NCBI RefSeq assembly: GCF_000270285.1
Contig: NC_015738.1
Location: 3,038,001-3,102,000, forward strand
Source of the DNA: Eggerthella sp. YY7918
Lineage (GTDB): Bacteria > Actinomycetota > Coriobacteriia > Coriobacteriales > Eggerthellaceae
Reading direction: 5' to 3'
Length of the DNA: 64,000 nucleotides
The notes under the pieces are model-generated. The model ran no database searches, was not told the DNA's origin, and was given only the letters and a program-made list of their open reading frames with translations. Position numbers and translations under genes: made by a program. This document shows positions 1 through 33,996 of this stretch, piece after piece. Position 1 is the first letter of the stretch. Every line of letters starts with the position of its first letter.

Positions 1-479
1 TTCCAGTTGAAGAGCAGAAGCATGATCGAGATCAATATGGTCGACGCGCCGGTTCCGAACAAAAGGGGCATGATATGGGAGAACATGCGCTCCTGATCGG
101 CGCAGTCCTTCATGATGGTGGTGGTGAGGTCCGAGAGGTCGCGCCTTCCGAAAAAGGAAAGGGGCAATCTGCGCAGCACCTCGGCAAGCTCGATCCGCTT
201 TCTGGCACTCTCGCCGTACACGACATTGTAGGTGAAATGGTATTCGAGCCATTGGGTCAGCAGCATGAGCAGGAGTATGACGACGATGGCTGCAAGATAG
301 CCACCAAGAGCAGGGAGGGGCTTCGAGGGGTCGAGCAGATGATCCAGGTAGTCGTTGGTCGCCATGCACAGCACGCCAATGGGTGCCATCATGACGAGGT
401 TGGCGAGAGCGCAGAAGAACGCGCCTCTCTTGAACTCGAAAGCACCCCGCTCGGTCAAAGCGAACTTCTCACGCAGCAT
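1..479 (-). CDS. ABC transporter, permease-ATPase fusion (YbtQ/IrtB-like), partial
   Basis: The frame runs off the left edge, so only the first 159 or so residues are present. It starts MLREKFALTERGAF and shows two hydrophobic helices (around residues 22-42 and 62-78), then the GRRDLSDLTTTIMKD stretch typical of the ABC exporter-fold transmembrane domain. The nucleotide-binding domain would lie outside the window. The ATG overlaps the end of the preceding ABC gene by 11 bp, so the two are translated together and probably form a heterodimer like YbtP/YbtQ of Yersinia or IrtA/IrtB of mycobacteria, which import ferric siderophores despite an exporter fold. The import direction is inferred from those families and from the NRPS neighbours. 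Confidence 0.85.
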   Translation of the reverse strand, partial: MLREKFALTERGAFEFKRGAFFCALANLVMMAPIGVLCMATNDYLDHLLDPSKPLPALGGYLAAIVVILLLMLLTQWLEYHFTYNVVYGESARKRIELAEVLRRLPLSFFGRRDLSDLTTTIMKDCADQERMFSHIMPLLFGTGASTILISIMLLLFNW

Positions 480-2319: not shown

Positions 2320-2349
2320 TTCTCCTCCTGCTCTATTACCAGGACGTTG

Positions 2350-2412
2350 TTTTGCACTTGCAGCGACTTGAATATTTCCGCAAACTGACCGCGTTACGCT
2401 GGGGGTGCAAAA
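2350..2412. promoter_or_regulatory. divergent control region between ABC pair and TetR gene
   Basis: The 136 bp between the divergent starts hold an inverted pair TTTTGCAC (2350-2357) and GTGCAAAA (2405-2412) separated by 47 bp, with AATATTTCCGCAAAC between them. A similar string, AATATTTGCAAAC, occurs in the divergent region near 4719-4731 upstream of the NRPS operon. These are candidate sites for the TetR protein or an iron regulator; no binding is demonstrated. Confidence 0.35.
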
Positions 2413-2455
2413 AAATGGTATTCTGTCGCAACCAGCAAATAGAAAGGTGCTGAAT

Positions 2456-3133
2456 ATGGGGTCGACGCGCCAGACAGCCGGCTTGCCAGCAATTGACGTG
2501 ACTTCTATCTGCGATGCCGCCTTGAAGCTCACCAAAGAATTTGGCATAGATGGTTGGCCTATTCGTCAACTGGCTAAAGAAATTAACGCGTACCCAGGTG
2601 TCATTAATTACCACGTTGGTCGAAGAGAAGATGTGGTACATCTTGTTATCGAGCACGTTAATGCCGAAATCGACCTTCCTGAGCCTCGCGAGAATTGGAA
2701 ACGATGGTTCAAGCTTCTTCTTGAGGGGATGCGTTCCACCCTGAGAAAGTACCCCGGAGTCGCTCGTAGACTCGCTGCCGTAGGTCCTGGCCTTGGGGAA
2801 TCCGACCGCATTATCAATTGCGGCATTCAAGTGCTGAGAGATGCTGGGTTTGGCGATTGGTCCACTCTTGTTTATTCCGTTTTGCTTTGCCAAACTTGCG
2901 CGTTCGTTGCTACCGAGGATGACAGGGACAAAATGGACGATGTGCGCAAAGAGGTGGGGGGTTCGTATGCGAGTGCGCTTTCTGCGTCCGATCCCGGTAT
3001 TGCCGCTTTGGCAAAAACGGTCAAACTCCTGACCGAAGAAGAAAGCCTGAGGAGAAGTTTTTTTGATCATCAGTTCTCAGTCCTTCTCGATGCTCTTCTC
3101 GGCGGATTGGAAGAGATTTTTTTAAAGGGCTGA
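2456..3133 (+). CDS. TetR-family transcriptional regulator
   Basis: A 225-aa protein. The N-terminal helix-turn-helix lies at about residues 15-60 (LTKEFGIDGWPIRQLAKEIN, then YPGVINYHVGRREDV), followed by an all-helical ligand-binding part resembling the TetR C-terminal domain. The ATG at 2456 is chosen because AAAGG sits just upstream; an in-frame ATG at 2415 has no obvious ribosome site. It is divergent from the ABC pair and ends directly against the convergent aryl-AMP ligase gene (stop codons adjacent at 3131-3136). It probably represses the locus and itself. The ligand, perhaps the siderophore or a precursor, is unknown. Confidence 0.85.
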   Translation: MGSTRQTAGLPAIDVTSICDAALKLTKEFGIDGWPIRQLAKEINAYPGVINYHVGRREDVVHLVIEHVNAEIDLPEPRENWKRWFKLLLEGMRSTLRKYPGVARRLAAVGPGLGESDRIINCGIQVLRDAGFGDWSTLVYSVLLCQTCAFVATEDDRDKMDDVRKEVGGSYASALSASDPGIAALAKTVKLLTEEESLRRSFFDHQFSVLLDALLGGLEEIFLKG

Positions 3134-4675
3134 CTAGCGTATCGAGGTCTTAAGAGCATTTAAATCAATTTTTCCTATGGGGGTCAGGGGCAACAACTCA
3201 CGAATCTCTACTCTGTCTGGATGCTTGAATGGGGCGATTCCTATGTTGTTTAAAAACTCCCTTATGGATTCCAAGTTGGGCGCATCGCCGCTGCAAACGA
3301 TAAACGCACACGTCTTTTCGCCAAGGGCTTGATCCGGTATCCCGCAGACGGCTACGTCTACGATGCCGGGCATTTCTCTAAGACTTGCCTCTACGTCTTC
3401 CGCCGAGAAAGTCTCACCGCCACGGTTTATTGTGTTTTTCAGACGTCCCGTGATTTTGAAGTTGCCGCAGGGATCCCTCACCGCTAAATCCCCCGTATGA
3501 TAAAATCCTTCCGAATCAAAAGAGCGCAGAGTAGAATATTCATCTTCGTAATATCCACTCATCAGATACGGTCCTTTCCATATCAATTCCCCTTCTTCGC
3601 CGTCTGCGCAAGGTTGCCCATCTTGTCCGATGATAAGAGGGCGATCGTTTTCGGAAAGGGGGAAGCCTTGGGTGGTAAAGGCGATTTCCTCTGGCGCTTC
3701 AGGGCTTGTCAGCGTCAATATTCCTTCAGTCATGCCGTATGATTGCTGGACAGCGCAAGAGAAAGCGGCAGAAAGCCTCTTGGCATCTTTTGCGGTAAAT
3801 CGCGCACCTCCTACATGGATGGACTCAAGGCTTGAAAGATCAACAGGATACCAGTCGAGTGCGTCCATCCAGAGGTTTACCGCCGATGGAACTGCTGTTA
3901 TTGTCGTCACTTTTGCAGAAGAGATCAATGGAAACACTTCATCGGGACTCACGCTTTCCGCCAAAATGACGGTGCCTCCTTTTTCTAGCGCACCAAGTGC
4001 GCCGGGGCATGCGAGCGGCAAATTATGGCATATCGACAAAGCTGCTAGGTATTTTGTTTTTTCGGAAAAAAGCGATCGGGAAGCCGCTTCCACGAAATTG
4101 TACACATAGCTGAAATTTGAGCGAGGAATAAGTTTAGGGAGTCCTGTTGTACCACCCGACGGAAGCAGGAACAAAATTGATGAGGAGTGGGGTGCTGTGG
4201 CTTGCCAGAGCTCTCCGCGCATATCCGAAACTGATCGATATTGATCGGAAGATCCGATGACAAAACATTTTAGCCTTGGATTGTCCTTTTTGATGGCTTT
4301 TGCTAAGGACTCGTAATCATAAGCCGGGGAAGAACACGGAACAATTAGGCAGGATGCATTTGACTTTGAGCAGAAATGAGAGATTTCCGCTTTGCGATGA
4401 GTCGGCAAAGCAAGTACGGGGATGCATCCTCTCATTACTGACCCGAACAAGATTATAAGAGATTCAGCTTTGTTCGGAAGCTGAAGGACGATCCTGTCCC
4501 CAGCTTCTATCCCCTCCGAAGCAAGGCAAGAGGCGAATCGCCTTGCCGCATCAAATAGCTCAGTGTAAGTATACGTGGTTTCTCTGTCGCGAACCGCAAT
4601 ATTTGCCCCATATTCACGCTCCCATTGCGCAATACGTTCAACAAGAGTGAAACCAACGTCGGTTGCCCTTCTCAT
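3134..4675 (-). CDS. salicylate-type aryl-AMP ligase (DhbE/PchD/YbtE family)
   Basis: A 513-aa stand-alone adenylation enzyme expected to activate an aryl acid and load it onto the carrier domain of NRPS1. It has the P-loop PSGGTTGLPK (about residues 172-181), QQSYGMTEG, YHTGDL and a C-terminal lysine in PIGKIDLNAL. The substrate-pocket segment reads HNLPLACPG (residues 217-225). DhbE, which uses 2,3-dihydroxybenzoate, has HNYPLSSPG, and the Ser-to-Cys change there is the one associated with salicylate enzymes. Start 4675 (MRRATDVG) follows AAGGGGG; upstream ATGs lack a good site. It is divergent from the NRPS operon. No salicylate synthase is visible in the window, though one could lie left of base 1. 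Confidence 0.88.
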   Translation of the reverse strand: MRRATDVGFTLVERIAQWEREYGANIAVRDRETTYTYTELFDAARRFASCLASEGIEAGDRIVLQLPNKAESLIILFGSVMRGCIPVLALPTHRKAEISHFCSKSNASCLIVPCSSPAYDYESLAKAIKKDNPRLKCFVIGSSDQYRSVSDMRGELWQATAPHSSSILFLLPSGGTTGLPKLIPRSNFSYVYNFVEAASRSLFSEKTKYLAALSICHNLPLACPGALGALEKGGTVILAESVSPDEVFPLISSAKVTTITAVPSAVNLWMDALDWYPVDLSSLESIHVGGARFTAKDAKRLSAAFSCAVQQSYGMTEGILTLTSPEAPEEIAFTTQGFPLSENDRPLIIGQDGQPCADGEEGELIWKGPYLMSGYYEDEYSTLRSFDSEGFYHTGDLAVRDPCGNFKITGRLKNTINRGGETFSAEDVEASLREMPGIVDVAVCGIPDQALGEKTCAFIVCSGDAPNLESIREFLNNIGIAPFKHPDRVEIRELLPLTPIGKIDLNALKTSIR

Positions 4676-4820
4676 AAAACCCCCTTCTGCCATCCGAAGC
4701 CTTAGAAGATATTTGCGCAATATTTGCAAACAACAACCCTTTCGCTATAAGTATACTATAGCTAACATTATGTTAGTATGCCTTATATTCAAAGACTTAT
4801 TGCTTGAAAGGGCGGTTGGC
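4676..4820. promoter_or_regulatory. divergent promoter region with 15-bp palindrome
   Basis: This AT-rich intergenic segment separates the aryl-AMP ligase from the NRPS operon. It contains two ATATTTGC copies in tandem (about 4710-4733), a TATACT box (4753-4758), and a perfect palindrome CTAACATTATGTTAG (4762-4776) just downstream of that box. The position suits an operator for the rightward operon. The regulator could be the TetR protein or a metal-dependent repressor; the palindrome is not the canonical DtxR/IdeR box. Confidence 0.45.
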
Positions 4821-7800
4821 ATGTCTGAAGTATGCGTGGAGCTAGTTGGAAAGCTTGTTGGGGAAATGCTCGGACTGTCAAAAGAAGAACTAAGCCCTTC
4901 GGATAATCTTATCAGTTTGGGGCTAGGATCTCTTGACATTATGAGAATAGCTGGGTTGCTAACAAAGAATGGCTGCAATGTTACCTTTTCAGAATTGGTT
5001 TCGAATCCCTGTATGGCTTCTTGGGTAAATTTTGCAAGAGAGAGGTCTGCGAGAAGCTCGTCTAATGGCAGCCCTCTCCTCGGTTCCGCAAATTACAGCA
5101 AAGGCGACCCCTTTCCGATCACGTCCGTCCAACATGCCTATATGGTTGGAAGGCGAGACGGACAGGAGCTAGGGGGAACCGCTTGTCACGCTTATATGGA
5201 ATTCGAATGCGGATCTCTCGATGCGGCCAAACTCGAACGCGCAGTGGAACTTCTTATTCTAAGGCATCCCATGCTGCGCGCCCGGTTCTCTGATGACGGA
5301 ACAGCCCGCATCGAAGACAAAGTAACTTGGAAGGGACTAACCACCTACAGAGTGGAAGGAGCAGGCAATCCCGACTCGAGGATTGAAGGTATTCGCCAAG
5401 AATTAAGTCACCTACGTTTCGACATCGAGCAAGACGATCTCATAGATGTACGCCTTACTGTCGTATCACCGAAACGCACTATCATGCATATCAACGTCGA
5501 TCTTCTTGCAGCTGATGTGCTTAGCATCCAAGTTCTCTTAGAGGATCTAGCGCATCTCTACGACGGAACGGATCTCGCCCCCATCGAGATAGACTTCATG
5601 GAGTATGCGAGAAGAACCGGAATCGGAGAAGACGCACGAAACGAGGATAGAGAATACTGGCTGAATCGAATAGACAACATGCCAGGCGGCCCCTCTTTGC
5701 CACTGAAAGCCCCTATGGAGAGTGTCAAAAGATCTCAATTCACTCGTATGGAGTACTTAATTGATTCTAAGTCTTGGAAGAACTTCACCGAGAAAGGACG
5801 GCAAATCGGGGTTACCCAATCTATGGGCATCGCCGCTGTTTATGCCAAGGCTCTTTCTCGATGGAGCGAAGACAAGAAATTTCTTCTCAACCTTCCGCTG
5901 TTCAACAGAAAACCAATTCACCCAGACGTTGACAAGATCGTATCCGACTTCACCTCTCTTATCCTTCTTGAGGCTGATTGCGCAAACGCAATTTCCCTTC
6001 TTGAACTAGCTTCTCAAATGCAAGGACGCTTTCAGCAGGATGTTGCGCACTCTTCATTTGGAGCTGTAGAGGTTTTGAGAGAGCTTTCTCACCGTTGCCC
6101 AAACGATCCCAAGAAAGCCCCTGTTGTATTCGCTAGCAATATCGGCACCCAATTTATCTCCAACAAAGTGGAAGATGTTTTCGGTCCCTTGTCGAAGATG
6201 CTAGCAGAAACACCACAGGTATTGCTGGATCATCAGATATACGATCATAAAAACGGGTTGCTTTTGGCGTGGGATTACGTTTCCGAATTGCTTGATGACA
6301 AAATAGCCAAACAGATGTTTGAGGCATATTGCACAGCAGTGCGCTTCTACTGCGAAAACGACTGGTCGGAGCCGTTCCCCGACCTGCTGCCCCCTTCGCA
6401 GCGCGCGGCGCGCGCCGAGGCGAACTCGGAGGGGGCCGACCTCGGCGGCGGGACGCTCCACGGACGGTTCTTCGCCCGCGCCCAGGCCGAGCCGGATGCC
6501 CCGGCGCTGCGGTGGGGAGCCGACGGCGAGGCGACCTACGGGGAGCTTGCCGGCCGCGCCCTGCGCATCGCCGGGGGGCTCGCCGCCGCCGGCGTGGGCG
6601 AGGGCGACCGCGTGGCCGTCAGGCTCCCGAAGGGGCCCGGCCAGGTGGCAGCCGTGCTGGGCGTGCTGGCCGCCGGGGCGGCGTACGTCCCCGTCGGCGT
6701 CTCCCAGCCCGAGGCCCGCGCGGCGCTCATCCTCGAACAGGCGGGCGCGTCCCTGTGCGTCGACTCCACCGAGCTGGCCCGCCTCGAGGCGGCCGACCCC
6801 CTCCCCGCGCCCGCCGGCCCCTCCGAGCGCGCGCTGGCCTACGTGATCTACACGTCCGGCTCCACCGGGGTGCCGAAGGGGGTGGCGGTGAGCCACGCCG
6901 CCGCGTGGAACACCATCGCCGATGTCGTGCGCCGATGGGGCATGGGGCCGGGAGATGCGGTCCTGGGCGTGTCGGCCCTTGACTTCGACCTCTCCGTGTT
7001 CGACATCTTCGGGGCCCTCTCGTTCGGAGCCGCCGTCGTGCTGCCCGACGAGGAGGAGCGCCGCGACGCATCGGCGTGGCGCGAGCTCGTCTCGTCCCGG
7101 GGCGTGACGGTGTGGAACTCGGCCCCCGCCCTGCTGGACGTGATGCTCGACGACGGCCCCGGGGCCGCGGCCGGTCTGCGGTTGGCCCTCGTCTCCGGCG
7201 ACTGGGTGCCGCTGGGTCTGCGCTCGAAGCTGCCCGAGGGGGTGCTGCTCGTGGCCATGGGCGGCGCGACCGAGGCCGGCATATGGTCGAACTACTTCGA
7301 GGTCGGGGAGGTCGATCCGTCGTGGAGCTCGATCCCCTACGGCAGACCCCTCTCCAACCAGTCCTTCCGCGTCGTGGGCGAGGACGGCCTCGACTGCCCC
7401 GACTGGGTGCCCGGCGAGCTGTGGATCGGCGGGGGGAGCCTGGCCGACGGGTATCTGGGCGATCCGGGGAAGACGGCCGCCTCCTTCGTCGAGGACGGGG
7501 GGCGCTGGTACCGGACGGGGGACATGGGCCGCTACTGGCCCGGAGCCGTCTTGGAGTTCCTCGGTCGCAAGGATTCCCAGCAGCAGGTGAAGATACGCGG
7601 CCACAGGGTGGAGCTGGGCGAGGTCGAGGCCGCCGTGGCCGGATGCCCCGGGGTGAAGGGGGCCGTGGCCGTCGTGGCCGGCGAGCGCGAGCGCTCGGTG
7701 GTGCATGCGTTCGTGGTCGCCGACGAGGGGGCTGACGTGGATCCGGCCGGGGTGCTGTCCCGCGTGGCCGGGCTCCTTCCCTCCTACTTCGTCCCCCATG

Positions 7801-8165
7801 ACGTGACGGTCCTAGACGAGTGGCCCTTGAGCGCGAACGGGAAGGTCGATCGAAAGGCCTTGGCCGGCATGGCCCCCGAAGCGGCCCCGTCCGCATCCTC
7901 CCTGTCCGAACCGGCCACCGAAGCGGAGCGCGCCGTGGCGTCGGTGTGGGAGGAGCTGCTCGATGCGGGGCCCGTCGGAAGGGAGTCGAACTTCTTCGAG
8001 CTGGGCGGCGACAGCCTCATGGCCATGAGAATGACGAGCGCTTTGGAAAAGCGTCTTGGATTCAAAATTGGACTTCAAGAATTTATATCCGATCCGACTG
8101 TAGCCGGAATCTGCCAAAAGATAGATACGACATGCGGGGACACATATGAGGAGGGAACCCTATGA
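4821..8165 (+). CDS. NRPS1: ArCP-Cy-A-PCP, PchE-like without epimerase
   Basis: A 1,114-aa synthetase starting at ATG 4821 after GAAAGGG. It has an aryl carrier domain with Ser37 in GLGSLD, a heterocyclization domain (about 95-525) with the DxxxxDxxS motif intact (D227, D232, S235), an adenylation domain from about 545 with SGSTGVPKG near 679, and a peptidyl carrier with Ser1065 in LGGDSL. A-domain pocket residues read D-L-F (FDLSVFDIF), N (TVWNSAP), S (LVSGDW) and IW (GGATEAGIWS), consistent with cysteine. It would condense the loaded aryl acid with cysteine and cyclize it to a thiazoline. P. aeruginosa PchE carries an epimerase in its A domain; none is present here. The segment from about 6361 to 8040 is far more GC-rich than the rest of the gene. 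Its stop overlaps the NRPS2 start. Confidence 0.92.
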   Translation: MSEVCVELVGKLVGEMLGLSKEELSPSDNLISLGLGSLDIMRIAGLLTKNGCNVTFSELVSNPCMASWVNFARERSARSSSNGSPLLGSANYSKGDPFPITSVQHAYMVGRRDGQELGGTACHAYMEFECGSLDAAKLERAVELLILRHPMLRARFSDDGTARIEDKVTWKGLTTYRVEGAGNPDSRIEGIRQELSHLRFDIEQDDLIDVRLTVVSPKRTIMHINVDLLAADVLSIQVLLEDLAHLYDGTDLAPIEIDFMEYARRTGIGEDARNEDREYWLNRIDNMPGGPSLPLKAPMESVKRSQFTRMEYLIDSKSWKNFTEKGRQIGVTQSMGIAAVYAKALSRWSEDKKFLLNLPLFNRKPIHPDVDKIVSDFTSLILLEADCANAISLLELASQMQGRFQQDVAHSSFGAVEVLRELSHRCPNDPKKAPVVFASNIGTQFISNKVEDVFGPLSKMLAETPQVLLDHQIYDHKNGLLLAWDYVSELLDDKIAKQMFEAYCTAVRFYCENDWSEPFPDLLPPSQRAARAEANSEGADLGGGTLHGRFFARAQAEPDAPALRWGADGEATYGELAGRALRIAGGLAAAGVGEGDRVAVRLPKGPGQVAAVLGVLAAGAAYVPVGVSQPEARAALILEQAGASLCVDSTELARLEAADPLPAPAGPSERALAYVIYTSGSTGVPKGVAVSHAAAWNTIADVVRRWGMGPGDAVLGVSALDFDLSVFDIFGALSFGAAVVLPDEEERRDASAWRELVSSRGVTVWNSAPALLDVMLDDGPGAAAGLRLALVSGDWVPLGLRSKLPEGVLLVAMGGATEAGIWSNYFEVGEVDPSWSSIPYGRPLSNQSFRVVGEDGLDCPDWVPGELWIGGGSLADGYLGDPGKTAASFVEDGGRWYRTGDMGRYWPGAVLEFLGRKDSQQQVKIRGHRVELGEVEAAVAGCPGVKGAVAVVAGERERSVVHAFVVADEGADVDPAGVLSRVAGLLPSYFVPHDVTVLDEWPLSANGKVDRKALAGMAPEAAPSASSLSEPATEAERAVASVWEELLDAGPVGRESNFFELGGDSLMAMRMTSALEKRLGFKIGLQEFISDPTVAGICQKIDTTCGDTYEEGTL
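6361..8040 (+). other. GC-rich segment spanning the NRPS1 A domain and PCP start
   Basis: Between the end of the Cy domain and the carrier-domain serine motif, base composition changes abruptly. GC-ending codons dominate almost every position, while the flanking parts of the same gene and the next gene are roughly balanced. The left edge is sharp near 6361-6380 (end of Cy, linker) and the right edge falls around 8010-8040, inside or just after GGDSL. The edges coincide with domain borders, as expected for replacement of an A-domain cassette by recombination. Confidence 0.75.
6837..6922 (+). repeat. 86-bp identical tract, copy 1 (NRPS1 A domain)
   Basis: This tract encodes the A-domain core around YTSGSTGVPKGVAVSHAAAW and is identical, base for base, to 10151-10236 in NRPS2. 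It lies within the GC-rich segment, so its composition matches its surroundings here. Confidence 0.95.
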
Positions 8166-11100
8166 TGGACGAGATCCGATGCCTTCTTGAAGAGATGGCA
8201 GATGCGGGAATACGTTTATGGGTCGAGGACGGAAAGCTAAAATTCAGAGCGCCATCTGGAGCCATGACGGTAGAAAGGGCTAACCTGATAAAGAAGAACA
8301 GGGATGCTGTAATCGCAGCCCTCAACGAACCTCGCCCGATAAAGCGCGAGCCCGAGAAAAGGTACGATCCTTATCCTCTTACAGACATACAGCAAGCTTA
8401 TCAGCTTGGCAAGAGCGAAGCTTATCCCTACGGCGGAGTGGGATGCCAAGGGTACATGGAGATTAGCTTGGGAGGCGTTGAATTCGAGCGATTGAACAAC
8501 GCATGGCGAAAAGTGGTGGCTCGGCATGACGTACTTCACTCGGTCATTTCTGAAGACGGTTATCAGCAGGTGCTGGAAGAATATGATGTGGGATTGATTG
8601 AATTCGTCGAAGCCGAATCGCGAAGCTTAGAAGAGGTCGCTTCCGAATGTCGTAGAACCATGGATCACAAGGATTATGCAACCTCGGTCCATCCGTACGA
8701 ACTGAAAGTGAGTACTGATGGGATTAAGTCAATCCTCCACATATCAGTCAACTTGGCTCTTTGTGACTTTTTGAGCATTACCATAATCCTCAATGATCTG
8801 GCTCGGGCATATGACGGCGAGCAACTAGATAGCAGCGACGAGATTTCCTTCAGAGATTTTGTCATGGATGCAAAAACCCGAGGAGTTTCCAGCCCTTCTC
8901 TAAAAGCAGATGAGGAATACTGGTCGGCACGCATTGACGAATTGCCTCCCGCCCCTATGCTTCCCATGGGGCCGAATCCTGACGTGCGAACGGGAGTTAG
9001 ATTCATTAGGCACCAGATGAGCCTTACCGATAACGAATGGGCAGAATTCCGTCGCACAAGCGCAGAGAAAGGGGTTACCCCCACAGCTGCATTGGTCGCT
9101 GCATTCTCGGACACTTTGGCGCTGTGGGCGGAATCATCGGATTTCACGATCAATATGACAATGTTGAACAGGGGGGACGACATTCCTGGAATCATGCGTA
9201 CGGTCGGTGATTTCACAATGTCAAGCCTATTGGGATTGATTCGTGACGAGCGCGCGCCCTTCTTCTCCCGCGCTCGTGCAGCGCAATCACAGCTATGGTC
9301 GGATCTTGAACATAGAAGCTTCTCCGGAGTCTCCGTGCTGAGAGAGATCGCGCGACGACGTGGACGTGCGGGCGGTGGGGCGCTCATGCCGTTCGTTTTC
9401 ACGAGCAGCATCGGCCTACGCGGAGGATCGTCCTTGAGTGAAACAAGCCTCTTTCGTGGCTCTCGAGTCATCGGCGGACTTTCACAAACCCCCCAAGTAT
9501 GGCTTGACTGCCAAGCGATGGAGTGGAATGGGTCTCTTGTAATCAATTGGGATGAGCGCGCTGGAGTCTTCCCTGACGGTCTGGTTTCAGATGCCTTTTC
9601 ATCCTTCGAACAGACCCTTAGAAGTCTTGCCTCGAGCAAAGCGACATGGGAAGAGACACGAATAGTCCATTTACCTCAAAAGCAGAAACTTGTTCGTATC
9701 GCAGCAAACGACACCGGCAAAGAAATAGTGTCGAGTACCCTCCACTCAGACTTTATGAAGACAGCCCTCTCTCATCCAGAGCTCCCCGCCGTGCGATTGG
9801 GAGATGAGTTTGTGACATATGCGGAGCTGAGGGCGCTTTCCCTCAAAGTGGCCCATAAGTTAAAGCGAGGAGTTCGGACTGCGATCATTCTTGAGAAGAG
9901 CATTGCACAAGTAGTTGCGGTGATCGGCTGCAGCCTTGCCGGCGCTCCCTTTATTCCTCTATCCCCTGACCATCCTCGATCAAGAGTCGACACCGTTATG
10001 GGCAATGCGGAAGTGGGCGCGGTTCTCGCCAAAGCTGAAACCCTCGAAAGGCTTGACTTGGCCGGCAAAGAAGAGGCTATGGATATCGACCTTATCCTAA
10101 GCGATGACATTTCCGCTAACTTCGAGGATCGGACTTTGCCATCTGACGAAGCCTACGTGATCTACACGTCCGGCTCCACCGGGGTGCCGAAGGGGGTGGC
10201 GGTGAGCCACGCCGCCGCGTGGAACACCATCGCCGACATAAATTCTCGATTCAACGTTAGGCAGAGCGACAAGATCATCGGATTGGCCGAGCTAACCTTC
10301 GACCTAGCTATATATGATATATTTGGAATCCTTTCCGTCGGAGGAGAGCTTATCTTCCCCGAACCCTCATCACTTAATGATCCGTCGAGCTGGTGCGACG
10401 TAGTTGTTAAACGCAAGGTAACGATATGGAATTCTGTCCCCCAGCAGATGCAAATGCTTTCTTACTACCTTGATACGGCTCCGGATGTCCCCTCTCTTTC
10501 CTTGAGGCTCGCTCTCTTGTCTGGCGACTGGATACCCGTCTCTCTACCCAACGATATCGCAGATAAAATCCCTCACTTGAAAATGGTGAGCCTCGGCGGT
10601 GCCACCGAGGGAGGAATCTGGTCGATCTTCCACGAAATCAATCCATCGGATTCGGAAAAGGCAAGCATTCCCTACGGAAAGCCTCTTGCCAACCAGGAGT
10701 TTGATATCGTAGGACGCGAACTTGAATCGCTGCCTCTTCTCGTTCCGGGTGAAATCATCATTAGCGGAAAGAGCCTTGCTTCGGGCTACCTCAATGACCC
10801 TGTTCGAACATCCGAGAGTTTTATAATGCGGGATGGAGTGAAATGCTATCGAACCGGCGACATGGGCAAATACCTGGAAAACGGCGACATCGAGTTTCTC
10901 GGGCGTGCAGATCAGCAGATTAAAGTACGGGGTTACCGCGTCGAGCTAGGCGAAGTGGAAGCCGCTTTAGAAAAGGCACCGGGAGTGGACAAGGCTGTCG
11001 CATTTGCTGCCGACAACGATAAAACCGACAAGCATCTTCTCGCCGCAGTCATCGCCGAAAAGGTCAATCCCGACAAGGCAGAATCCTTGTTCAAGAGATC

Positions 11101-13555
11101 TACGGTCGCCATGAAAGAATGTATGAGAGATCGCTTCAGCAAAATGGCTGTCAACGAAGTTGCAGAGTATTGCCGCAAAGTTGACGAGGTCTGCTTGTCG
11201 GCCATGATGAATTTGATAGCAGATGCCGTTAGCAAAGATGGCTTCTCAATGGATGACATGATGCATGGACTCAATGCCAAAGAGAGGAACAGAAGGCTCC
11301 TAGAGAGATGGGCGAAGTCTCTCGTCGACATGAAAGCGCTCAATGCAAAGGGCGACTCGTTTTGCTTCTCGGACGATTATAAGAGAGGCGACATTGAAGC
11401 TTTATGGCAACAGCTCGAATCCTTGGAACTGAAAGTCGAGTACAGCAAAGGGCTTTTGTCGTTTTTGCACACATGCATAGATTCCTTATCCGGCCTCGTG
11501 TCGGGGAAAGTGGATCATTTATCCATACTTTTTCCCGAAGGTGGTTTTGATGTAGCCGCTTCAACCTACAGGGACAACCTAGCCTCCAAAACTCTCAACT
11601 CCACACTAGTTAGCATGGTTTCGGAATTTGCGCGCATCAAGGGTGGGTTGAGAGTTCTTGAGGTCGGGGCCGGTACGGGAGGCAGCAGCGACTCGCTCAT
11701 CGATGCGCTTGAGGGAACGGGGAGCACATATCTTTTTACTGACATCTCTGAATTCTTCCTCTCTGAAGCCCGAAATCGCTACGAAGGTAAAAACTGGATT
11801 GGCTACGCCATCTACGATGTCAATAAGGATGCCAGAACTCAGGGACTTGCAGACAACTCATTTGATCTCATCGTAGGCGCAAACGTACTCCATAATTGCA
11901 TCGATGTCCTTGCAGGGCTGGGGCAAATCAAATCCCTTCTTTCTCCGGGAGGCATTTTGGCCTTTATTGAGGCCACGCGCGAGAGCTTTCCCCTTATGGT
12001 CAGCATGGATTTCCAAGATGCCCTCGGGATGGAGTACTCGGATTTGCGTGCAGGAACCAGCAAGGTATTCCTTAACCTCGACGAATGGAGCGGAATCCTC
12101 GCAAAAGCAGGTTTTGGCTTGACGGACTGCTCTCCTACGAACGAAGAACCGGATCTCTTTGGCCAGCACCTGATAGTCGCACAAGCAAAGGCTGATATAG
12201 CCGCGCTTTCGGTCGATGATGTGGTATCAGCCGCACAAGAAACCCTTCCCTCATACATGATTCCTGAAGCCATTGGGATAATCGACACCCTTCCCCTTTC
12301 GAGAAACGGAAAGGTTGACAGAGCCGAGCTTAAACGCCTACCACTGCTCGGAAGAACGCAGTCGAAAACTGCGGGCATCGGAGATGAGAGAGACAGCTAC
12401 CGTAGCGATTTGGAAGCACGCCTAGCTGTAGAGTTTTCTGAAGTACTCGGAGCAGATAGCGTCAGGAGGGATGATGACTTCTTTGAGCTTGGAGGCGATT
12501 CGCTTTTGGCCACCAAACTCGCAGCCCAGATAAAGAAGAACGTAGACGAAGCGGCTGAGCTTGAATGGGAGTGGCTTTTGAGAAAGATGATGGAAAGCCC
12601 AACGGTCAGCTCACTCGCACTCGCGCTCTCCAGTACAGAAGAAGCAGAAAAGGCCGCGCCCAAAGGGCAGATGGCGCCTGTTGTCGTATTGAAAGACGGA
12701 AACGGAGATGGCGTCGTTAACGTATTGGTGCATGACGGAACAGGCACTCTTGACCCATACCGCGACCTTATTAGCGCTTCGGGTGACAAACTCATCATCG
12801 GTGTGCAAATGCCCGACATGCAAAAAGCCTTGGATTATGACACCCGATCTCTTATAGAAACCCTCGGAAGAGAGTATGCCGACCGCCTCTCGGAATGGAA
12901 TGGATGCAGCTTTAGGATAGTGGGATACTGCATGGGAGGTTTGATCGCAACAGAGATTGCAAGAAACCTGATGGAGCAGGGAGAAACCGTTGCCGATCTC
13001 TTTGTCATCAGCTCATATGGGTTCCCGTTCAAAATCACCGAAGACGTAATGATTGAGTATGCTTTTGCTCGCGTACTTAATGCCCCAACTGAAGACCTCG
13101 GGTATCCGAAAGACGACGAAGCCTTCGCCAACGCAATCGCTGATGCCCAGATCCGACACCCCGGAGTATTGGATCTTCTCGATGGTGAAGGCCCTGTTGT
13201 CGAAAAACTGAAGAAGATTGCCTCCCTAGATTCGAACGAGCGCATGCGTAGGATACTTTCAACCGTGACCGCCGATAGCAACGTCGTAGAAAGATTGACC
13301 CAAATTTACAGGACGTTCAAACATAATTTGATTGCAGTAATGGAATACGAATCAAAACCCTATCTTGGCCCTATCCACTTTTTGCGAGACAGTGGAAGAA
13401 TGGGGCTATTCAAGAACATCGGTGGTGATGAAACGGTTTTCTGGAACAGCGTCGCCCTCATGGGGATAGACACCCAAGATATAGAAGGAGATCACTTTAC
13501 CTGCATATCCGGAGAACACGCAAAAGATGTCGCAAAGAGAGTGGGGCTTCGATGA
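8162..13555 (+). CDS. NRPS2: docking-Cy-A-MT-PCP-TE, PchF-like
   Basis: A 1,797-aa synthetase, close to the length of PchF. It has an N-terminal TubC-type docking helix region (about 1-50), a Cy domain (about 60-500), and an A domain with the same tract as NRPS1 and a cysteine-type pocket (FDLAIYDIF, TIWNSVP, LLSGDW, GGIWS). A methyltransferase is inserted in the A domain (LEVGAGTGG at about 1166-1174), then come a PCP (Ser1447) and a thioesterase. The Cy motif reads N197-L-A-L-C-D202-F-L-S205, so the first Asp is Asn. The thioesterase nucleophile motif is GYCMGG, with Cys1590 where Ser is usual. Predicted role: add and cyclize a second cysteine, N-methylate it after reduction, and release the product. 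Its start overlaps the NRPS1 stop (ATGATG) after GGAGGG. Confidence 0.92.
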   Translation: MMDEIRCLLEEMADAGIRLWVEDGKLKFRAPSGAMTVERANLIKKNRDAVIAALNEPRPIKREPEKRYDPYPLTDIQQAYQLGKSEAYPYGGVGCQGYMEISLGGVEFERLNNAWRKVVARHDVLHSVISEDGYQQVLEEYDVGLIEFVEAESRSLEEVASECRRTMDHKDYATSVHPYELKVSTDGIKSILHISVNLALCDFLSITIILNDLARAYDGEQLDSSDEISFRDFVMDAKTRGVSSPSLKADEEYWSARIDELPPAPMLPMGPNPDVRTGVRFIRHQMSLTDNEWAEFRRTSAEKGVTPTAALVAAFSDTLALWAESSDFTINMTMLNRGDDIPGIMRTVGDFTMSSLLGLIRDERAPFFSRARAAQSQLWSDLEHRSFSGVSVLREIARRRGRAGGGALMPFVFTSSIGLRGGSSLSETSLFRGSRVIGGLSQTPQVWLDCQAMEWNGSLVINWDERAGVFPDGLVSDAFSSFEQTLRSLASSKATWEETRIVHLPQKQKLVRIAANDTGKEIVSSTLHSDFMKTALSHPELPAVRLGDEFVTYAELRALSLKVAHKLKRGVRTAIILEKSIAQVVAVIGCSLAGAPFIPLSPDHPRSRVDTVMGNAEVGAVLAKAETLERLDLAGKEEAMDIDLILSDDISANFEDRTLPSDEAYVIYTSGSTGVPKGVAVSHAAAWNTIADINSRFNVRQSDKIIGLAELTFDLAIYDIFGILSVGGELIFPEPSSLNDPSSWCDVVVKRKVTIWNSVPQQMQMLSYYLDTAPDVPSLSLRLALLSGDWIPVSLPNDIADKIPHLKMVSLGGATEGGIWSIFHEINPSDSEKASIPYGKPLANQEFDIVGRELESLPLLVPGEIIISGKSLASGYLNDPVRTSESFIMRDGVKCYRTGDMGKYLENGDIEFLGRADQQIKVRGYRVELGEVEAALEKAPGVDKAVAFAADNDKTDKHLLAAVIAEKVNPDKAESLFKRSTVAMKECMRDRFSKMAVNEVAEYCRKVDEVCLSAMMNLIADAVSKDGFSMDDMMHGLNAKERNRRLLERWAKSLVDMKALNAKGDSFCFSDDYKRGDIEALWQQLESLELKVEYSKGLLSFLHTCIDSLSGLVSGKVDHLSILFPEGGFDVAASTYRDNLASKTLNSTLVSMVSEFARIKGGLRVLEVGAGTGGSSDSLIDALEGTGSTYLFTDISEFFLSEARNRYEGKNWIGYAIYDVNKDARTQGLADNSFDLIVGANVLHNCIDVLAGLGQIKSLLSPGGILAFIEATRESFPLMVSMDFQDALGMEYSDLRAGTSKVFLNLDEWSGILAKAGFGLTDCSPTNEEPDLFGQHLIVAQAKADIAALSVDDVVSAAQETLPSYMIPEAIGIIDTLPLSRNGKVDRAELKRLPLLGRTQSKTAGIGDERDSYRSDLEARLAVEFSEVLGADSVRRDDDFFELGGDSLLATKLAAQIKKNVDEAAELEWEWLLRKMMESPTVSSLALALSSTEEAEKAAPKGQMAPVVVLKDGNGDGVVNVLVHDGTGTLDPYRDLISASGDKLIIGVQMPDMQKALDYDTRSLIETLGREYADRLSEWNGCSFRIVGYCMGGLIATEIARNLMEQGETVADLFVISSYGFPFKITEDVMIEYAFARVLNAPTEDLGYPKDDEAFANAIADAQIRHPGVLDLLDGEGPVVEKLKKIASLDSNERMRRILSTVTADSNVVERLTQIYRTFKHNLIAVMEYESKPYLGPIHFLRDSGRMGLFKNIGGDETVFWNSVALMGIDTQDIEGDHFTCISGEHAKDVAKRVGLR
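10151..10236 (+). repeat. 86-bp identical tract, copy 2 (NRPS2 A domain)
   Basis: Identical to 6837-6922 and in the same reading frame. Here it is a GC-rich patch in a much less GC-rich gene, with divergent sequence resuming immediately on both sides. This suggests copying from the NRPS1 A domain, or from the same GC-rich source, into NRPS2. Confidence 0.95.
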
Positions 13556-14574
13556 TCGGAGTGCTTGGGTCGAGCGGGCATGTTGGATCACTGCTTGCCG
13601 ACATGCTGAAAGCTAAGGGGTACGAGCTTCGCCTCGGTTCTCGCTCGGCCGGATTCATCGTCAACATGACAGACCCTAGTTCTTTGTCAAGATTTCTCGA
13701 TGGATGCGATGCGGTGGTCAACTGCGCTGGCCCCGCGTATCTACTGAGCGAACCAGCAGCAAGAACCGCCATAAGCTCAGGCGTTGCATACTTTGACGTT
13801 GCCGGCTGCGAAAACCTGTGCAAAACCCTAGCTGACGAATCGGCGGAAACACCGGTTGTATTTTCTGCAGGAATGGTGCCGGGGCTCTCGGGTCTTCTAC
13901 TAAAGATGGCTATTTCCGCAAACAAAGGACAGGATATTGTTGGCTTTGCCGGGGGAGTCCAAGATATCTCTCTGGGTGCTGCGGCGGATCTAGTTTTGAG
14001 CATGTCCGATACGTCGGGATATGGCAACAATGGCTCCATGTGGCGTAGCGGCGCAGTCCGCGAACTTGACCACGATCCAACCCCCGCCCCCTCTTGCTTT
14101 CCCGAAGGGTCGTTTTGCAGAGCCTTTTTGTCAGAAGAGGCGAGAGTCATAGCCGAGAAGGAGGCACTTCCAAGACTTGAATGGTATAACGTATTTGTAG
14201 GTGATCTGTTTTGCAAGGCTCTTGTCGACGCACAGTTGTCGAAAACCCAGAGCCTCGAAGAAGCAAGCAAGAAAATCAGCATAGCCGCATCCATCGATGC
14301 TATGGGTAGACAGGCATTTTATACGTTGGCTGCAACTTCTGGAGAAATGGCCTACATTGTTAAATCGGCCGACAGCTATGAGCTAACTGCAGCAGTGGCA
14401 TGCTATGCCATAGAGAGTTTCCTTGCTGGGAGCATCCCCAATGGCGTATACAACTTGCCCGATCTGCTTGATCCAGAACTGGCGATATACGGAATTCTAT
14501 CTTTGTCTAAGAGTGCTCGAATCGAAATTGCACCGTCAAAGTCTTTGTTTGAAGTCGAGGAAGGCGAGTTATGA
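13552..14574 (+). CDS. saccharopine dehydrogenase-like NAD(P)-binding oxidoreductase
   Basis: A 340-aa protein opening with a Rossmann fingerprint (IGVLGSSGHVGSLLADML), then the saccharopine dehydrogenase-like pattern DAVVNCAGP and GVAYFDVAG. The ATG overlaps the NRPS2 stop (ATGA), so translation is coupled. In the pathway it may reduce a thiazoline ring or an intermediate. A second, unrelated reductase (the thiazolinyl imine reductase) follows directly, so the two may act on different rings or one may be redundant. The substrate cannot be decided from sequence. Confidence 0.78.
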   Translation: MIGVLGSSGHVGSLLADMLKAKGYELRLGSRSAGFIVNMTDPSSLSRFLDGCDAVVNCAGPAYLLSEPAARTAISSGVAYFDVAGCENLCKTLADESAETPVVFSAGMVPGLSGLLLKMAISANKGQDIVGFAGGVQDISLGAAADLVLSMSDTSGYGNNGSMWRSGAVRELDHDPTPAPSCFPEGSFCRAFLSEEARVIAEKEALPRLEWYNVFVGDLFCKALVDAQLSKTQSLEEASKKISIAASIDAMGRQAFYTLAATSGEMAYIVKSADSYELTAAVACYAIESFLAGSIPNGVYNLPDLLDPELAIYGILSLSKSARIEIAPSKSLFEVEEGEL

Positions 14575-15554
14575 AAGCCGTGGTTGTGGGGAGCACGTTC
14601 GGAAGCGTATATGCCGAGGGCATTAAGATTGCCGACGATGTAGAGCTGGCTGGTATTGTAGGCAGGGGGAGCAAGAGAAGCGCCGCCTTGGCTGCATCAT
14701 ACGGAGTTCCTCTGTATCAAGGGGCTAATGCCGTTCCGGCAAACATAGATCTTGCTTGTGTCGTGGTAAGATCAGCCATGGTTGGAGGAGATGGAGTTGA
14801 AATATCTCGCTCCTTCCTCGAGAAGGGCATTCACGTAATCCAAGAGCAGCCCATGCATAGCAGCGAGGTTCTTGAGCTGACCAGATGCGCTGCAGAACAT
14901 GATTGCAAATTCATGCTTAACGGTTTCTATCCATATCTCGATTCGGTTAAGCGCTTCATTGATGCCGCAGCTTCCCTTCGCAAGGAACACGAATTGCTAA
15001 GCATAGATGTGACTACATGCGTACAAGTAGCATACCCTTTTGTAGAGGTGGTTGGGAAAGTGGCCGGAAGCTTGCATCCTTTCAGATTGGAGAAGATAGC
15101 AGATGCCGGTCCTTTTGACATCCTAGTCGGAGAAGTAGGAGGAGTTCCCCTTTCCGTTCGATTCCAAAACGAAATGGATTCCAGTGACCCAGACAATAAT
15201 GCCATAGCCCTGATGCGGATGGATGTTTGCTCGGATAAAGGCATTCTGTCCCTATGCGACGTTTACGGAGATGTTCTTTGGACGCCACGGTTTCATGTCG
15301 GAAAGGCAGCAGCCGACAGCTCGAATCTCTCAACCGTCGAAAGCGCAAGTATTAACGTTCTTCATAGGAGAGCAGAGGCATATAATTCTATCCTCGCTGA
15401 ACAGTGGCCGAAGGGGATTGCCAATATGCTCTCGGAGAGACTTGGAGAGCGCAACTCCCTTGCCACAACCCAATTCCAGATTTCCGCATGCCTAGCCTGG
15501 CAAGAGTTTACTTCGGCCTTAGGTGCCCCAAGCGAATTGAGGCAACGTCGTTAA
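14571..15554 (+). CDS. thiazolinyl imine reductase (PchG/YbtU/Irp3 family)
   Basis: A 327-aa Gfo/Idh/MocA-fold oxidoreductase starting with a Rossmann stretch (KAVVVGSTFGSVYAEGI). The segment EKGIHVIQEQPMHSSEV matches the PchG/Irp3 pattern, where Gfo/Idh enzymes usually have an EKP motif. It is expected to reduce a thiazoline to a thiazolidine with NADPH while the chain is bound to the synthetase. The start overlaps the previous stop (ATGA), and its stop shares a base with the next ATG (TAATG). Confidence 0.88.
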   Translation: MKAVVVGSTFGSVYAEGIKIADDVELAGIVGRGSKRSAALAASYGVPLYQGANAVPANIDLACVVVRSAMVGGDGVEISRSFLEKGIHVIQEQPMHSSEVLELTRCAAEHDCKFMLNGFYPYLDSVKRFIDAAASLRKEHELLSIDVTTCVQVAYPFVEVVGKVAGSLHPFRLEKIADAGPFDILVGEVGGVPLSVRFQNEMDSSDPDNNAIALMRMDVCSDKGILSLCDVYGDVLWTPRFHVGKAAADSSNLSTVESASINVLHRRAEAYNSILAEQWPKGIANMLSERLGERNSLATTQFQISACLAWQEFTSALGAPSELRQRR

Positions 15555-16966
15555 TGGTAGTCGAGCGAACAGCGTCATTTGGAAAGCTTCATTTAAAAGG
15601 CATTGTTGCTTCGGTAGGTTTGACCGCTGGGCTTCTCGTTTTGATATTTCCATTGCCGGAGTTGGAAAGCCCAGCACGTATTCAGCTTGCTCTCACTCTC
15701 GGTGCTTTATCGTTTTGGGCAAGCGGAGTGATGCCGGCCCCAATTACGGGCATGCTGTATATGGGGCTACTGCTCATCACGAACTCCTCTGATCCGCTAA
15801 CAGTTTTTTCTGGCTGGACGAACGAAGGAGGCGGTCTATGGCTGGTGCTTTGCGCGTTTCTCATAGCTTCTGGAGTTGAAAGGTCTGGACTTGCTAGAAG
15901 AGCAGCTCTGAGTATTTGCGCATCCGGTCAAGTCAAAGGTTTTCAATCGCTCATTGCAGCGATAGCCGTCATAGAGCTGTTGTTCGCACTGATCATTCCA
16001 AGCGCCTTTGCAAGAACATTCGTCATATTGGCAGTTGCAAAAGAAGTGTGCAAAGAAAATAGCGTATCTGAGACGGATGCCGCTGTAATCAATTTTGCAT
16101 GTTTTGCGCTTGCAGTTCCCACGACACTTATCTTTTTGACTTCGGAACCAGCCCTCAATACACTCGTTGTTGAATATTCCGAATTAGGGTTGAGCTGGGT
16201 TGGCTGGTTCAGCACTATAGGCATTCCCAACATCATCTACTTATTTTTAGTGACAGTTCTGTTTATAAGAGTGTTTAAGCCGTCTGGAAAGGTCTTTGTA
16301 GATGGGGTAAAAAGCCGCGCTTCGTTAGAAGACCTTGGCAGATTGAGCCCTAAAGAAAAGAAGATGGCTTTGTGGCTCTCTCTGATGATTGCATTCTGGT
16401 TGCTTTACCCTTTCATGGGAATAGGTATAGCGTGGGGAACTATGCTTCTCACATCGCTTATGTTCCTACCTCGAATCGGAGTACTTGACGCAAAAGCTTT
16501 TGCAGACGTTCCCGTGGGAACTCTTGTATTCCTCACCTGTGCGTTGTCGATCGGATCTGTAGGCGAAGCCACAGGTATGAGCCAGTGGATTGCCGATACG
16601 GCGCTCCCAGCTTCTTTACCAAGCGATATTCTGTCAACCGTCATTTTTATATCAGCAATATCATTGGCCATCCATACTTTGATAGGATCAGTGTTGGCCA
16701 CCGCTGTCGTTATTTTTCCCATACTGATATCGTTCGGCGATGTAGCGGGATTGGGCGTAAGCGATGCGGGCGCTGTTCTGATCGCATACCAAATGATTGC
16801 CAGCCAGTTTTTTCTTTCGATGCATCAGGCACCGATTGCCTCTGGCATGGAGCTTGCTGGGTACGGCGAAAAGACCGTAATGAAGCTTGGCGCTCCCATG
16901 ACTTGCCTTGCGCTTGTTCAGCAGGTACTCGTGACTGGCTGGCTTTTTCTTGCAGACGTTTTGTAG
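15554..16966 (+). CDS. DASS/SLC13-family anion:sodium symporter-like membrane protein
   Basis: A 470-aa protein with about a dozen hydrophobic helices. The residues MPAPITGMLYMG and the later NTLVVEYSELGLSW and SVGEATGMSQWI regions resemble the divalent anion symporter family. The ATG at 15554 is chosen because it overlaps the upstream stop (TAATG); an open frame extends further upstream over the reductase gene. Such a carrier is not standard in pyochelin or yersiniabactin loci. It could move an aromatic or carboxylate precursor, or the product. The substrate is unknown. Confidence 0.78.
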   Translation: MVVERTASFGKLHLKGIVASVGLTAGLLVLIFPLPELESPARIQLALTLGALSFWASGVMPAPITGMLYMGLLLITNSSDPLTVFSGWTNEGGGLWLVLCAFLIASGVERSGLARRAALSICASGQVKGFQSLIAAIAVIELLFALIIPSAFARTFVILAVAKEVCKENSVSETDAAVINFACFALAVPTTLIFLTSEPALNTLVVEYSELGLSWVGWFSTIGIPNIIYLFLVTVLFIRVFKPSGKVFVDGVKSRASLEDLGRLSPKEKKMALWLSLMIAFWLLYPFMGIGIAWGTMLLTSLMFLPRIGVLDAKAFADVPVGTLVFLTCALSIGSVGEATGMSQWIADTALPASLPSDILSTVIFISAISLAIHTLIGSVLATAVVIFPILISFGDVAGLGVSDAGAVLIAYQMIASQFFLSMHQAPIASGMELAGYGEKTVMKLGAPMTCLALVQQVLVTGWLFLADVL

Positions 16967-16988
16967 GATCGCTCCTAGGAGGACAAGC

Positions 16989-17750
16989 GTGAACAATTGG
17001 ATAGTCGATCTCAATCAGAAAGAGCAAGCGAGAGGAACAGCTTTGGTATTTGTGCCCCATGCGGGCGGAGGACCCAATGCATTCAGATCTGTCGCACGCG
17101 AGATTCGCAGGAAACTTCCTGTCTACGCTATTTGCTATCCAGGTCATGAAAATAGAATATCGGAGCCTCTCGTAGACGATTTCTCGTTTGTAGCAGAGGG
17201 AATCGCCAAAGCAGCGTCCGCATATTTTGAAGATCGACCTTTTGCCTATTTCGGACACAGCATGGGGGCCTCCCTTGCCCATGAAGCAGCTCGAATCGCA
17301 GCGCTGGATAAACTGCATGGCCCTTCGCATTTGATAGTATCAAGCCGAGAAGCTCCTTCGAGCATCAGAGAGGCCCACGTCCACCTCTATGACGATGCCG
17401 AATTTAGGGAAGAATTGCTTCGCGTAGGCGGAATATCTCCCGAGGTGCTCGAGATAGACGAACTCTGCGATATATTTTTGCCGATCATTCGGAACGACTA
17501 CAAACTGATAGAAGAGTACGTTCCTACAGAAAATTATGAGATGGGCATCGACTGTCCCGTTACGGCTTTCTTAGGGAAGGACGATCCGGAAGCTCTGGAG
17601 AATGAAATGAGGGATTGGGCAAACGTTACGACAGGCTTCTTCGAGATGAGGCATTTCCAAGGAGGGCATTTTTACTTCATGGACGATGTTTCCCAAGTCG
17701 CCACTGCTCTAGTCGAAACGCTGCACAACAACAGACAATCCAGCGTCTAG
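16989..17750 (+). CDS. type II thioesterase (PchC/YbtT family)
   Basis: A 253-aa alpha/beta hydrolase with FVPHAGGG near the start, the nucleophile elbow FGHSMGAS, and a C-terminal HFQGGHFYF carrying the catalytic His. It would remove wrong or stalled acyl groups from the carrier domains. A GTG start at 16989 is chosen because AGGAGG lies 7 bp upstream; an earlier in-frame ATG at 16950 overlaps the transporter gene. It is the last gene of the biosynthetic operon, 10 bp from the convergent ABC importer genes, and no terminator hairpin is visible in that gap. Confidence 0.9.
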   Translation: MNNWIVDLNQKEQARGTALVFVPHAGGGPNAFRSVAREIRRKLPVYAICYPGHENRISEPLVDDFSFVAEGIAKAASAYFEDRPFAYFGHSMGASLAHEAARIAALDKLHGPSHLIVSSREAPSSIREAHVHLYDDAEFREELLRVGGISPEVLEIDELCDIFLPIIRNDYKLIEEYVPTENYEMGIDCPVTAFLGKDDPEALENEMRDWANVTTGFFEMRHFQGGHFYFMDDVSQVATALVETLHNNRQSSV

Positions 17751-21014: not shown

Positions 21015-21031
21015 GCCCTTCGTCCGATTCG

Positions 21032-25273: not shown

Positions 25274-25294
25274 GGCGGCCTCCTTTCTGCTTCG

Positions 25295-28911: not shown

Positions 28912-28945
28912 CGGCCCGCCTCCTTTCGGGGCCCGCGCGACGGGC

Positions 28946-31945: not shown

Positions 31946-31948
31946 GCT

Positions 31949-33995: not shown

Positions 33996-33996
33996 C

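Follow-up and report, generated by a model that had tools for sequence, protein, structure and literature searches.

The window analysed here is a stretch of 64,000 nucleotides from Eggerthella sp. YY7918 (contig NC_015738.1, positions 3,038,001 to 3,102,000), a member of the gut-dwelling family Eggerthellaceae, in agreement with an initial annotation that had assigned the DNA, from its letters alone, to a probable gut actinobacterium. At positions 3134-17750, the window contains a gene cluster for a putative siderophore of the pyochelin kind, with two non-ribosomal peptide synthetases (NRPS1 and NRPS2). Here, we describe the genes of this cluster, the mobile element that surrounds it and an abrupt rise in GC content (a “GC cliff”) inside NRPS1, which is two modules shorter than a near-identical counterpart in Adlercreutzia hattorii; the initial annotation mentions neither the GC cliff nor the element, nor another NRPS cluster of the thiazoline type that this genome contains. 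Coordinates are given in window numbering, with negative values located left of the window on the same contig.

Genes and domains of the siderophore cluster

All of the named genes of the cluster have been confirmed at their places and in their families (Table 1). The aryl-AMP ligase matches AMP-binding in Pfam (E-value 3.5e-63), and its best NCBIfam model, the dihydroxybenzoate (DHB)-AMP ligase, is matched at 465 bits, under the cut-off of 723.55. The pocket stretch HNLPLACPG, compared with HNFALACPG in the solved salicylate-AMP ligase 5WM2 and with HNYPLSSPG in DhbE, has the Cys of 5WM2 at the salicylate position (Ser in DhbE), as the initial annotation had stated, and Ile where DhbE has Val; the same pair, Cys and Ile, is the reported code of EqbD from the equibactin pathway (PMC3672683). 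From these pocket residues, the ligase is predicted to activate salicylate.

The Pfam content of NRPS1 is two PP-binding domains, one condensation and one AMP-binding domain, and its Cy motif is DLLAADVLS. The closest solved protein is PchE (7EMY, E-value 3.3e-238), and those A-domain specificity residues that could be followed by eye agree with PchE: D, L and F of FDLSVFD, then N, then I and W, which we take to be the specificity positions. By reading, there is no E-type insert between motifs A8 and A9, in line with the earlier claim that NRPS1 lacks an epimerase. In NRPS2, TubC docking, condensation, AMP-binding, methyltransferase, PP-binding and thioesterase domains are found with Pfam; its thioesterase motif is GYCMGG.

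Comparisons with relatives refer to 78 related loci, i.e. the best 80 of 108 confirmed loci minus two copies of the present element; full flanks are present in 60 of the 78. The Cys of the thioesterase had been considered as a special trait of the locus, and this has been ruled out, since 64 of 74 aligned loci have this Cys, GYCxGG being the usual motif of relatives. The product of the saccharopine-dehydrogenase-like gene scores barely over the Pfam cut-offs of Epimerase (31.2 bits) and Sacchrp_dh_NADP (26.5 bits); the gene had been presented as a difference from known systems, a view that has to be abandoned, because a homologue occurs in 68 of the 78 related loci and because equibactin activity was lost without EqbM, a protein of this type, in an Escherichia coli reconstitution (PMC3672683). 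The thiazolinyl imine reductase reaches 270.8 bits with TIGR01761 (thiaz-red; cut-off 188.8). The DASS-like carrier scores 98.6 bits with Na_sulph_symp, over the cut-off, and 107.6 with TIGR00785 (dass), under its 198.6; it has been found in none of the 78 related loci, and so remains a distinguishing feature. The type II thioesterase is present as annotated. Of the pyochelin pathway that had been proposed, the domain order, the salicylate-type pocket, the imine reductase and the two-cysteine logic hold, and genes for salicylate synthesis have not been recognised.

The mobile element

Two other genomes of the family, when compared with this one, reveal that the cluster is cargo of an element that extends from -10,122 to 52,019, i.e. 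over 62.1 kb between cores; the element also occurs in Gordonibacter sp. An230 and in A. hattorii 8CFCBH1, both Eggerthellaceae, and hence in three genera. Across the shared stretch, there are 9 differences (7 + 2) between the window and An230, some of them at the extreme ends of the stretch. When joined, the chromosome flanks fold as a tRNA-Gly(CCC) that is split by the element in the anticodon region, and a complete tRNA-Gly(CCC) is located near the left end of each of the three element copies (here at about -9926 to -9853); in A. hattorii, only the right flank resembles the split tRNA-Gly(CCC), as judged by eye. Among 138 genomes of the family, five have an imine-reductase homologue (E-value up to 1e-15), and three of the five, including this genome, have the version of the element. 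The siderophore cluster is cargo of a mobile element and not a fixed trait of the species, and the near-identity of the element copies between genera points to recent spread. A search for the cluster in plasmids has returned one 81-bp match and nothing more.

In the left part of the element, outside the window, there are genes for a tyrosine recombinase, a MazF-like toxin, a phosphopantetheinyl transferase, an S-adenosylhomocysteine hydrolase, cysteine synthase A, an S-adenosylmethionine synthetase, ABC transporters and a DtxR-family repressor, both Pfam domains of which are over the cut-off. With an integrase, type IV secretion genes and defined ends present, the element appears to be an integrative conjugative element (ICE), whose excision and transfer are predicted from the near-identical copies in three genera. 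The element also encodes, at 46637-48928, a SpaA-repeat and NlpC/P60 protein that is likely a surface protein.

The GC content is 49.8% in the cluster without the A block of NRPS1 (described below), 67.6% in the conjugation genes, and 57.6% and 51.9% in the chromosome flanks. The idea that the cluster is foreign to the chromosome by its GC content has been dropped in view of these flank values; the contrast is with the conjugation genes of the element itself.

A second, larger thiazoline-type NRPS cluster is located at 36000-57300 and 30707-32155 of the same contig. Its first NRPS has two A domains, a later Cy is split between two frames (near 12606-12648 of the extracted locus sequence), and Cy-A-MT-PCP-TE follows; the neighbours are an ABC pair, an imine reductase, a type II thioesterase, an MFS carrier and an aryl-AMP ligase (42% identity). 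The conjugation-type genes beside it (contig positions 60862-73986) share 82.6-85.7% identity with the element copies of An230 and A. hattorii, so that this cluster may ride on a related element.

Table 1. Position, strand and basis of assignment of the features in the window
Feature	Position	Strand	Basis or remark
Fused ABC transporter 1, part (whole frame -1257..653)	1..653	-	Pfam ABC_membrane + ABC_tran
Fused ABC transporter 2	469..2547	-	Pfam ABC_membrane + ABC_tran; true start probably inside the frame, at about 2346
TetR-like regulator, weak assignment	2405..3133	+	MftR2 8.8e-11 and TetR 4.7e-8 (both below cut-off); TetR_N 0.012
Aryl-AMP ligase, salicylate-type pocket	3134..4675	-	Profile matches and pocket residues
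NRPS1, ArCP-Cy-A-PCP, 1,114 aa	4821..8165	+	Pfam, PchE alignment
High-GC A block of NRPS1 (core 6360-7692); junction of 7,056-bp loss	6360..8023	+	GC3, repeat comparison
86-bp tract identical to NRPS2 10151-10236	6837..6922	+	Repeat comparison
NRPS2, docking-Cy-A-MT-PCP-TE, 1,797 aa	8162..13555	+	Pfam and motifs
NRPS2 Cy motif NLALCDFLS	8750-8776	+	Motif reading
High-GC tract (71%) in NRPS2 A domain, probable gene-conversion tract	10151..10236	+	Identity to NRPS1 6837-6922
Saccharopine-dehydrogenase-like reductase, EqbM type	13552..14574	+	Pfam; homologues in related loci
Thiazolinyl imine reductase	14571..15554	+	TIGR01761; Irp3/YbtU structures
DASS-like anion carrier	15554..16966	+	Na_sulph_symp, TIGR00785
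Site of 1.5-kb Mutator-type transposase insertion in A. hattorii, 8-bp duplication	16096..16103		Sequence comparison
Type II thioesterase, motif GHSMG	16950..17750	+	Pfam and motif
Opp/Nik-type ABC importer: ATPase, two permeases, binding protein	17760..22624	-	Candidate metal-chelate importer
Conjugation and maintenance genes: CHAP protein, VirB4, VirD4/TraG-type, Toprim protein, DNA methylases, ParA-type ATPase	23696..51836	-
VirB4	25295-27604	-	Within conjugation block
VirD4/TraG-type	29262-31229	-	Within conjugation block
ParA-type ATPase	50931-51836	-	Within conjugation block
Right end of element, core TTGGGAAGCT	52010..52019		Flank comparison

The mosaic of NRPS1 and the number of modules

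NRPS1 is a mosaic in its GC content at third codon positions (GC3), which is 0.48 up to position 6359, 0.94 in 6360-7692, 0.87 in 7693-8023 and 0.45 downstream. The A. hattorii NRPS1 has 3,466 aa and three extension modules, with the layout ArCP-Cy-A-PCP-Cy-A(MT-like insert)-PCP-Cy-A-PCP: a core of 1,333 bp (6360-7692 in the window) is identical in all three of its A domains, the identity between copies 1 and 3 reaches 1,664 bp, and modules 2 and 3 also agree in the later portion of Cy, beginning shortly after DxxxxDxxS, with one mismatch in 2,161 bp, while the N-terminal Cy parts of the modules are only 24-31% identical. The window follows the A. hattorii sequence as far as A copy 1 and resumes it at copy 3 (3 mismatches in 1-8023 and 15 in 6360-16103); the intervening 7,056 bp are absent, in frame. 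This arrangement suggests a homologous recombination event between the identical A copies 1 and 3 that would have shortened NRPS1 while keeping its frame.

Several points weigh against this reading. The crossover cannot be placed, because the A copies are identical, and the preference for loss over gain of modules rests on the GC mosaic and not on a dated tree. Moreover, the An230 contigs, which overlap by 77 bases, break exactly at window position 6360, where the A block begins on its left side. This may reflect an additional A copy or a mixed population at this place; a minority long form in An230 would explain both the contig break and the missing sequence of modules 2 and 3, which has not been found in that genome (40 of 152 candidates scored).

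We consider it unlikely that the assembly collapsed the identical A blocks of 1.66 kb and that the real NRPS1 gene has three modules, as in A. hattorii. Collapsing of exact repeats would yield precisely this in-frame outcome, and the An230 contigs end at the block edge, as would be expected of a short-read graph where a second path enters the repeat; however, the genome is one 3.12-Mb contig, a result that usually takes reads longer than 1.7 kb, and the sequence of modules 2 and 3 is missing from the scored An230 candidates, even though that assembly includes a contig as short as 615 bp. It is quite improbable that the short form, which two of the three element copies appear to have, is ancestral and that the two additional modules of A. 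hattorii were inserted later, with copying of the A block, since the low identity of the N-terminal Cy parts means that the modules are not recent duplicates, and a high-GC block within low-GC modules reads as the overwriting of pre-existing modules.

Recombination between the A copies also bears on the stereochemistry of the product, for which the initial annotation had deduced an enantio-pyochelin-like configuration from the missing epimerase. This is weak ground: the near-identical A. hattorii NRPS1 has an MT-like insert in module 2, which matches the PchE-type epimerase weakly (E-value 0.0098), and the absence of an epimerase in the window may stem from the loss of modules.

Origin of the GC cliff

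The GC3 of A domains has been compared with that of their flanks for 137 domains, from the 78 named relatives, both clusters of this genome, the Eggerthellaceae genome G134 and A. hattorii; matches below 230 bits, matches covering less than 80% of the model and those with too short flanks were dropped. The excess over the flanks is at least 0.19 in six domains (the one of the window, three of A. hattorii and two of G134), and the difference lies between -0.11 and +0.06 in the remaining 131. The two GC-rich A domains of G134 are inverted and 98.4% identical over 1,452 bp (18238-19689 and 22634-24084 of the joined locus), and they form the sole repeat of at least 200 bp and at least 90% identity among 81 loci (with one genome, G264, counted twice). 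In the A. hattorii NRPS1, GC3 is 0.47, 0.85 and 0.94 in the parts that are present in one, two and three copies, respectively (Fisher p 8e-6, two versus three), and the GC content of fourfold sites is 0.40, 0.88 and 0.95 (p 0.0016).

This rise with copy number agrees with GC-biased gene conversion, without proving it, and there is a counter-example: in another Eggerthellaceae genome, G313, an A domain at about 6663-7847 has a GC3 of 0.85 versus 0.63 and a cliff of +0.21, seen twice, and no near-identical copy in its own genome. The proposition that every GC-cliff A domain has a twin is ruled out by this case. A further 40 loci of the family (10 stretches of nine genomes picked for long reading frames, plus 30 loci), which gave 26 rows with duplicates, have cliffs only in one A. 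hattorii row and in G313.

The simpler reading of the cliff, towards which we lean slightly, is that the high-GC A block came from a high-GC actinomycete and was subsequently copied from module to module, with no GC-biased conversion. In a FastTree tree of 136 A domains, the block groups with high-GC Actinomycetota (local support 95, best identity 62%), and the cliff of G313 stands without a second genomic copy; on the other side, no donor above 62% identity has been found, and GC cliffs otherwise track copy number. Within the class, no close donor above 51% has been found outside the element (396 genomes, E-value up to 1e-110, three candidates scored per genome), and a single 33-base pattern of the block has no exact match in viral contigs. 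The NRPS2 A domain groups, in the same tree, with Curtanaerobium, another member of the Eggerthellaceae (local support only). A more far-reaching proposal, which we hold to be rather doubtful, is that the A domain is a recombination contingency locus, where frequent GC-biased conversion would keep the copies identical and make the cliff, and crossovers would change the number of modules, switching between a two- and a four-cysteine siderophore as the element moves between gut genera.

Supply of the aryl acid

The initial annotation had noted that no salicylate synthase is in view, and this extends to the whole genome: in searches with Chorismate_bind and CM_2, no salicylate synthase has been recognised in the window, in the left part of the element or elsewhere in the genome, leaving no candidate for the aryl acid genes that had been suspected left of the window. 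The genome search that it had proposed for isochorismate and salicylate synthases has returned one chorismate-binding protein, beside menD, that scores above the cut-off of the isochorismate synthase model TIGR00543 (259.5 bits versus 224.75) and fails the salicylate synthase model (86.4 bits versus the required 325.15). There is also one CM_2 protein of the chorismate-mutase family, encoded next to a DAHP synthase gene. In An230, A. hattorii and G264, the only chorismate-binding protein is a MenF orthologue (59-82% identity) encoded beside menD; G134 has, in addition to such an orthologue next to menD, a second chorismate-binding protein.

An alternative that we hold to be unlikely is endogenous production of salicylate, with isochorismate cleaved by a lyase that escaped recognition or without an enzyme. 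In its favour, each of the three element hosts has an isochorismate synthase, the chorismate-mutase family includes isochorismate-pyruvate lyases, and the CM_2 protein scores under the cut-offs of the chorismate-mutase models that it matches, but this sole lyase candidate sits beside DAHP synthase. Equibactin, which is likewise described without a salicylate synthase, needed salicylate to be supplied in defined medium (PMC3672683), and ten metallophore regions have been reported without chelator genes anywhere in the genome, with equibactin named as a case of an exogenous precursor (PMC12971057). These cases, together with the lack of a recognised synthase, make the scavenging of salicylate from the surroundings the best reading, although not a proven one.

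Proposed pathway and product

We think it likely that the genes of the window make a salicylate-capped thiazoline metallophore of the pyochelin and equibactin kind, on a conjugative element of about 62 kb, with a short NRPS1 that resulted from recombination between A copies 1 and 3; we infer the substrate, the product and the role in iron from sequence. The ligase would load salicylate, taken up rather than synthesised, onto the ArCP; NRPS1 would add one Cys and cyclise it; NRPS2 would add a second Cys, cyclise it and N-methylate; the imine reductase would reduce one ring, and the TE would release the product. The ABC systems of the element would move the product, and its DtxR-type repressor would sense iron. 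Recombination would shift the product from four cysteines (long form; calculated [M+H]+ of about 495.06, or 509.08 with one more methyl) to two (short form; about 325.07).

Two points count against this scheme. The Cy motif of NRPS2 has Asn in place of the first Asp of DxxxxDxxS, in the window and in An230, A. hattorii being no different; the best-matching Cy of 73 relatives has Asp in 60 cases, Glu in 12 and Asn in one, and the second ring may therefore form poorly. In addition, the link of the Opp/Nik importer and of the DASS-like carrier to the product is putative. A decaying locus, with little or no metallophore made, seems improbable: the Asn of the Cy motif, the transposase insertion that interrupts the DASS-like gene of A. 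hattorii (locus sequence 13902-15415) and the deletions of the equibactin locus that are documented in persistent Streptococcus equi isolates (PMC4561494) speak for it, but the reading frames of the window cluster are all intact, its thioesterase motif is the usual one, and near-identical copies across genera imply recent spread.

Comparison with known systems

Neither the element nor its product is named in the literature titles and abstract openings that were searched, subscription papers and preprints being outside the search. Pyochelin is made by PchD/E/F/G, with the synthetase layout ArCP-Cy-A-PCP / Cy-A-MT-PCP-TE, a ligase and an imine reductase, with PchA/PchB in addition. The window has the same domain order, ligase and imine reductase, with PchE as the closest solved relative of NRPS1; unlike the pyochelin system, it is without PchA/PchB and without an E-type insert in NRPS1, and it has a mobile element and ABC transport.

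The equibactin genes eqbA-N of ICESe2 in S. equi are, as here, carried by an ICE with a DtxR-like regulator, a phosphopantetheinyl transferase and ABC transporters, without a salicylate synthase in the locus as described; a salicylate-type ligase with Cys and Ile, a Cy-rich NRPS pair with MT and TE, an imine reductase, a saccharopine-dehydrogenase-like gene and a type II thioesterase are also shared (PMC3672683). The differences are that EqbE/EqbG have one A, three Cy and an E domain, whereas the window has two A domains (one per NRPS), two Cy and no E insert; that the Ser of the equibactin TE is Ala, whereas the window has Cys; that the importer is of a different type; and that the present element has, beyond what is described for equibactin, a cysteine synthase, an S-adenosylmethionine synthetase, an S-adenosylhomocysteine hydrolase and the DASS-like carrier (PMC3672683). 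The element 023_CTn1 of Clostridioides difficile clade 3 shares the gut anaerobe host, the mobile element, the imine reductase, the saccharopine dehydrogenase, two NRPS, a DHB-type ligase and the phosphopantetheinyl transferase; its host belongs to another phylum, and variation in module number is not described in the part of the source referred to here (PMC6814731).

With synthetases that are exactly two modules apart, these near-identical mobile elements capture the remodelling of an assembly line as it occurs in nature, and steps in GC content mark the domain boundaries. Two questions become testable: by which route natural NRPS change their module number, and whether gene conversion in bacteria favours GC. 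The elements also extend equibactin-like, probably salicylate-dependent metallophores to the Eggerthellaceae and, if this holds true, gut salicylate would be tied to metal uptake by commensals. ICE-borne, salicylate-dependent thiazoline metallophores are already known from equibactin, and domain replacement and homogenisation within an assembly line are shared with the recombination and concerted evolution of A domains in NRPS and polyketide synthase systems (PMC9205934, PMC4256081). What appears to be new, with function predicted from the genes, is that module number varies through homogenised A domains on a mobile element: unlike in the cases described in those sources, the homogenised copies are GC cliffs and are tied to a change of module number between near-identical mobile elements.

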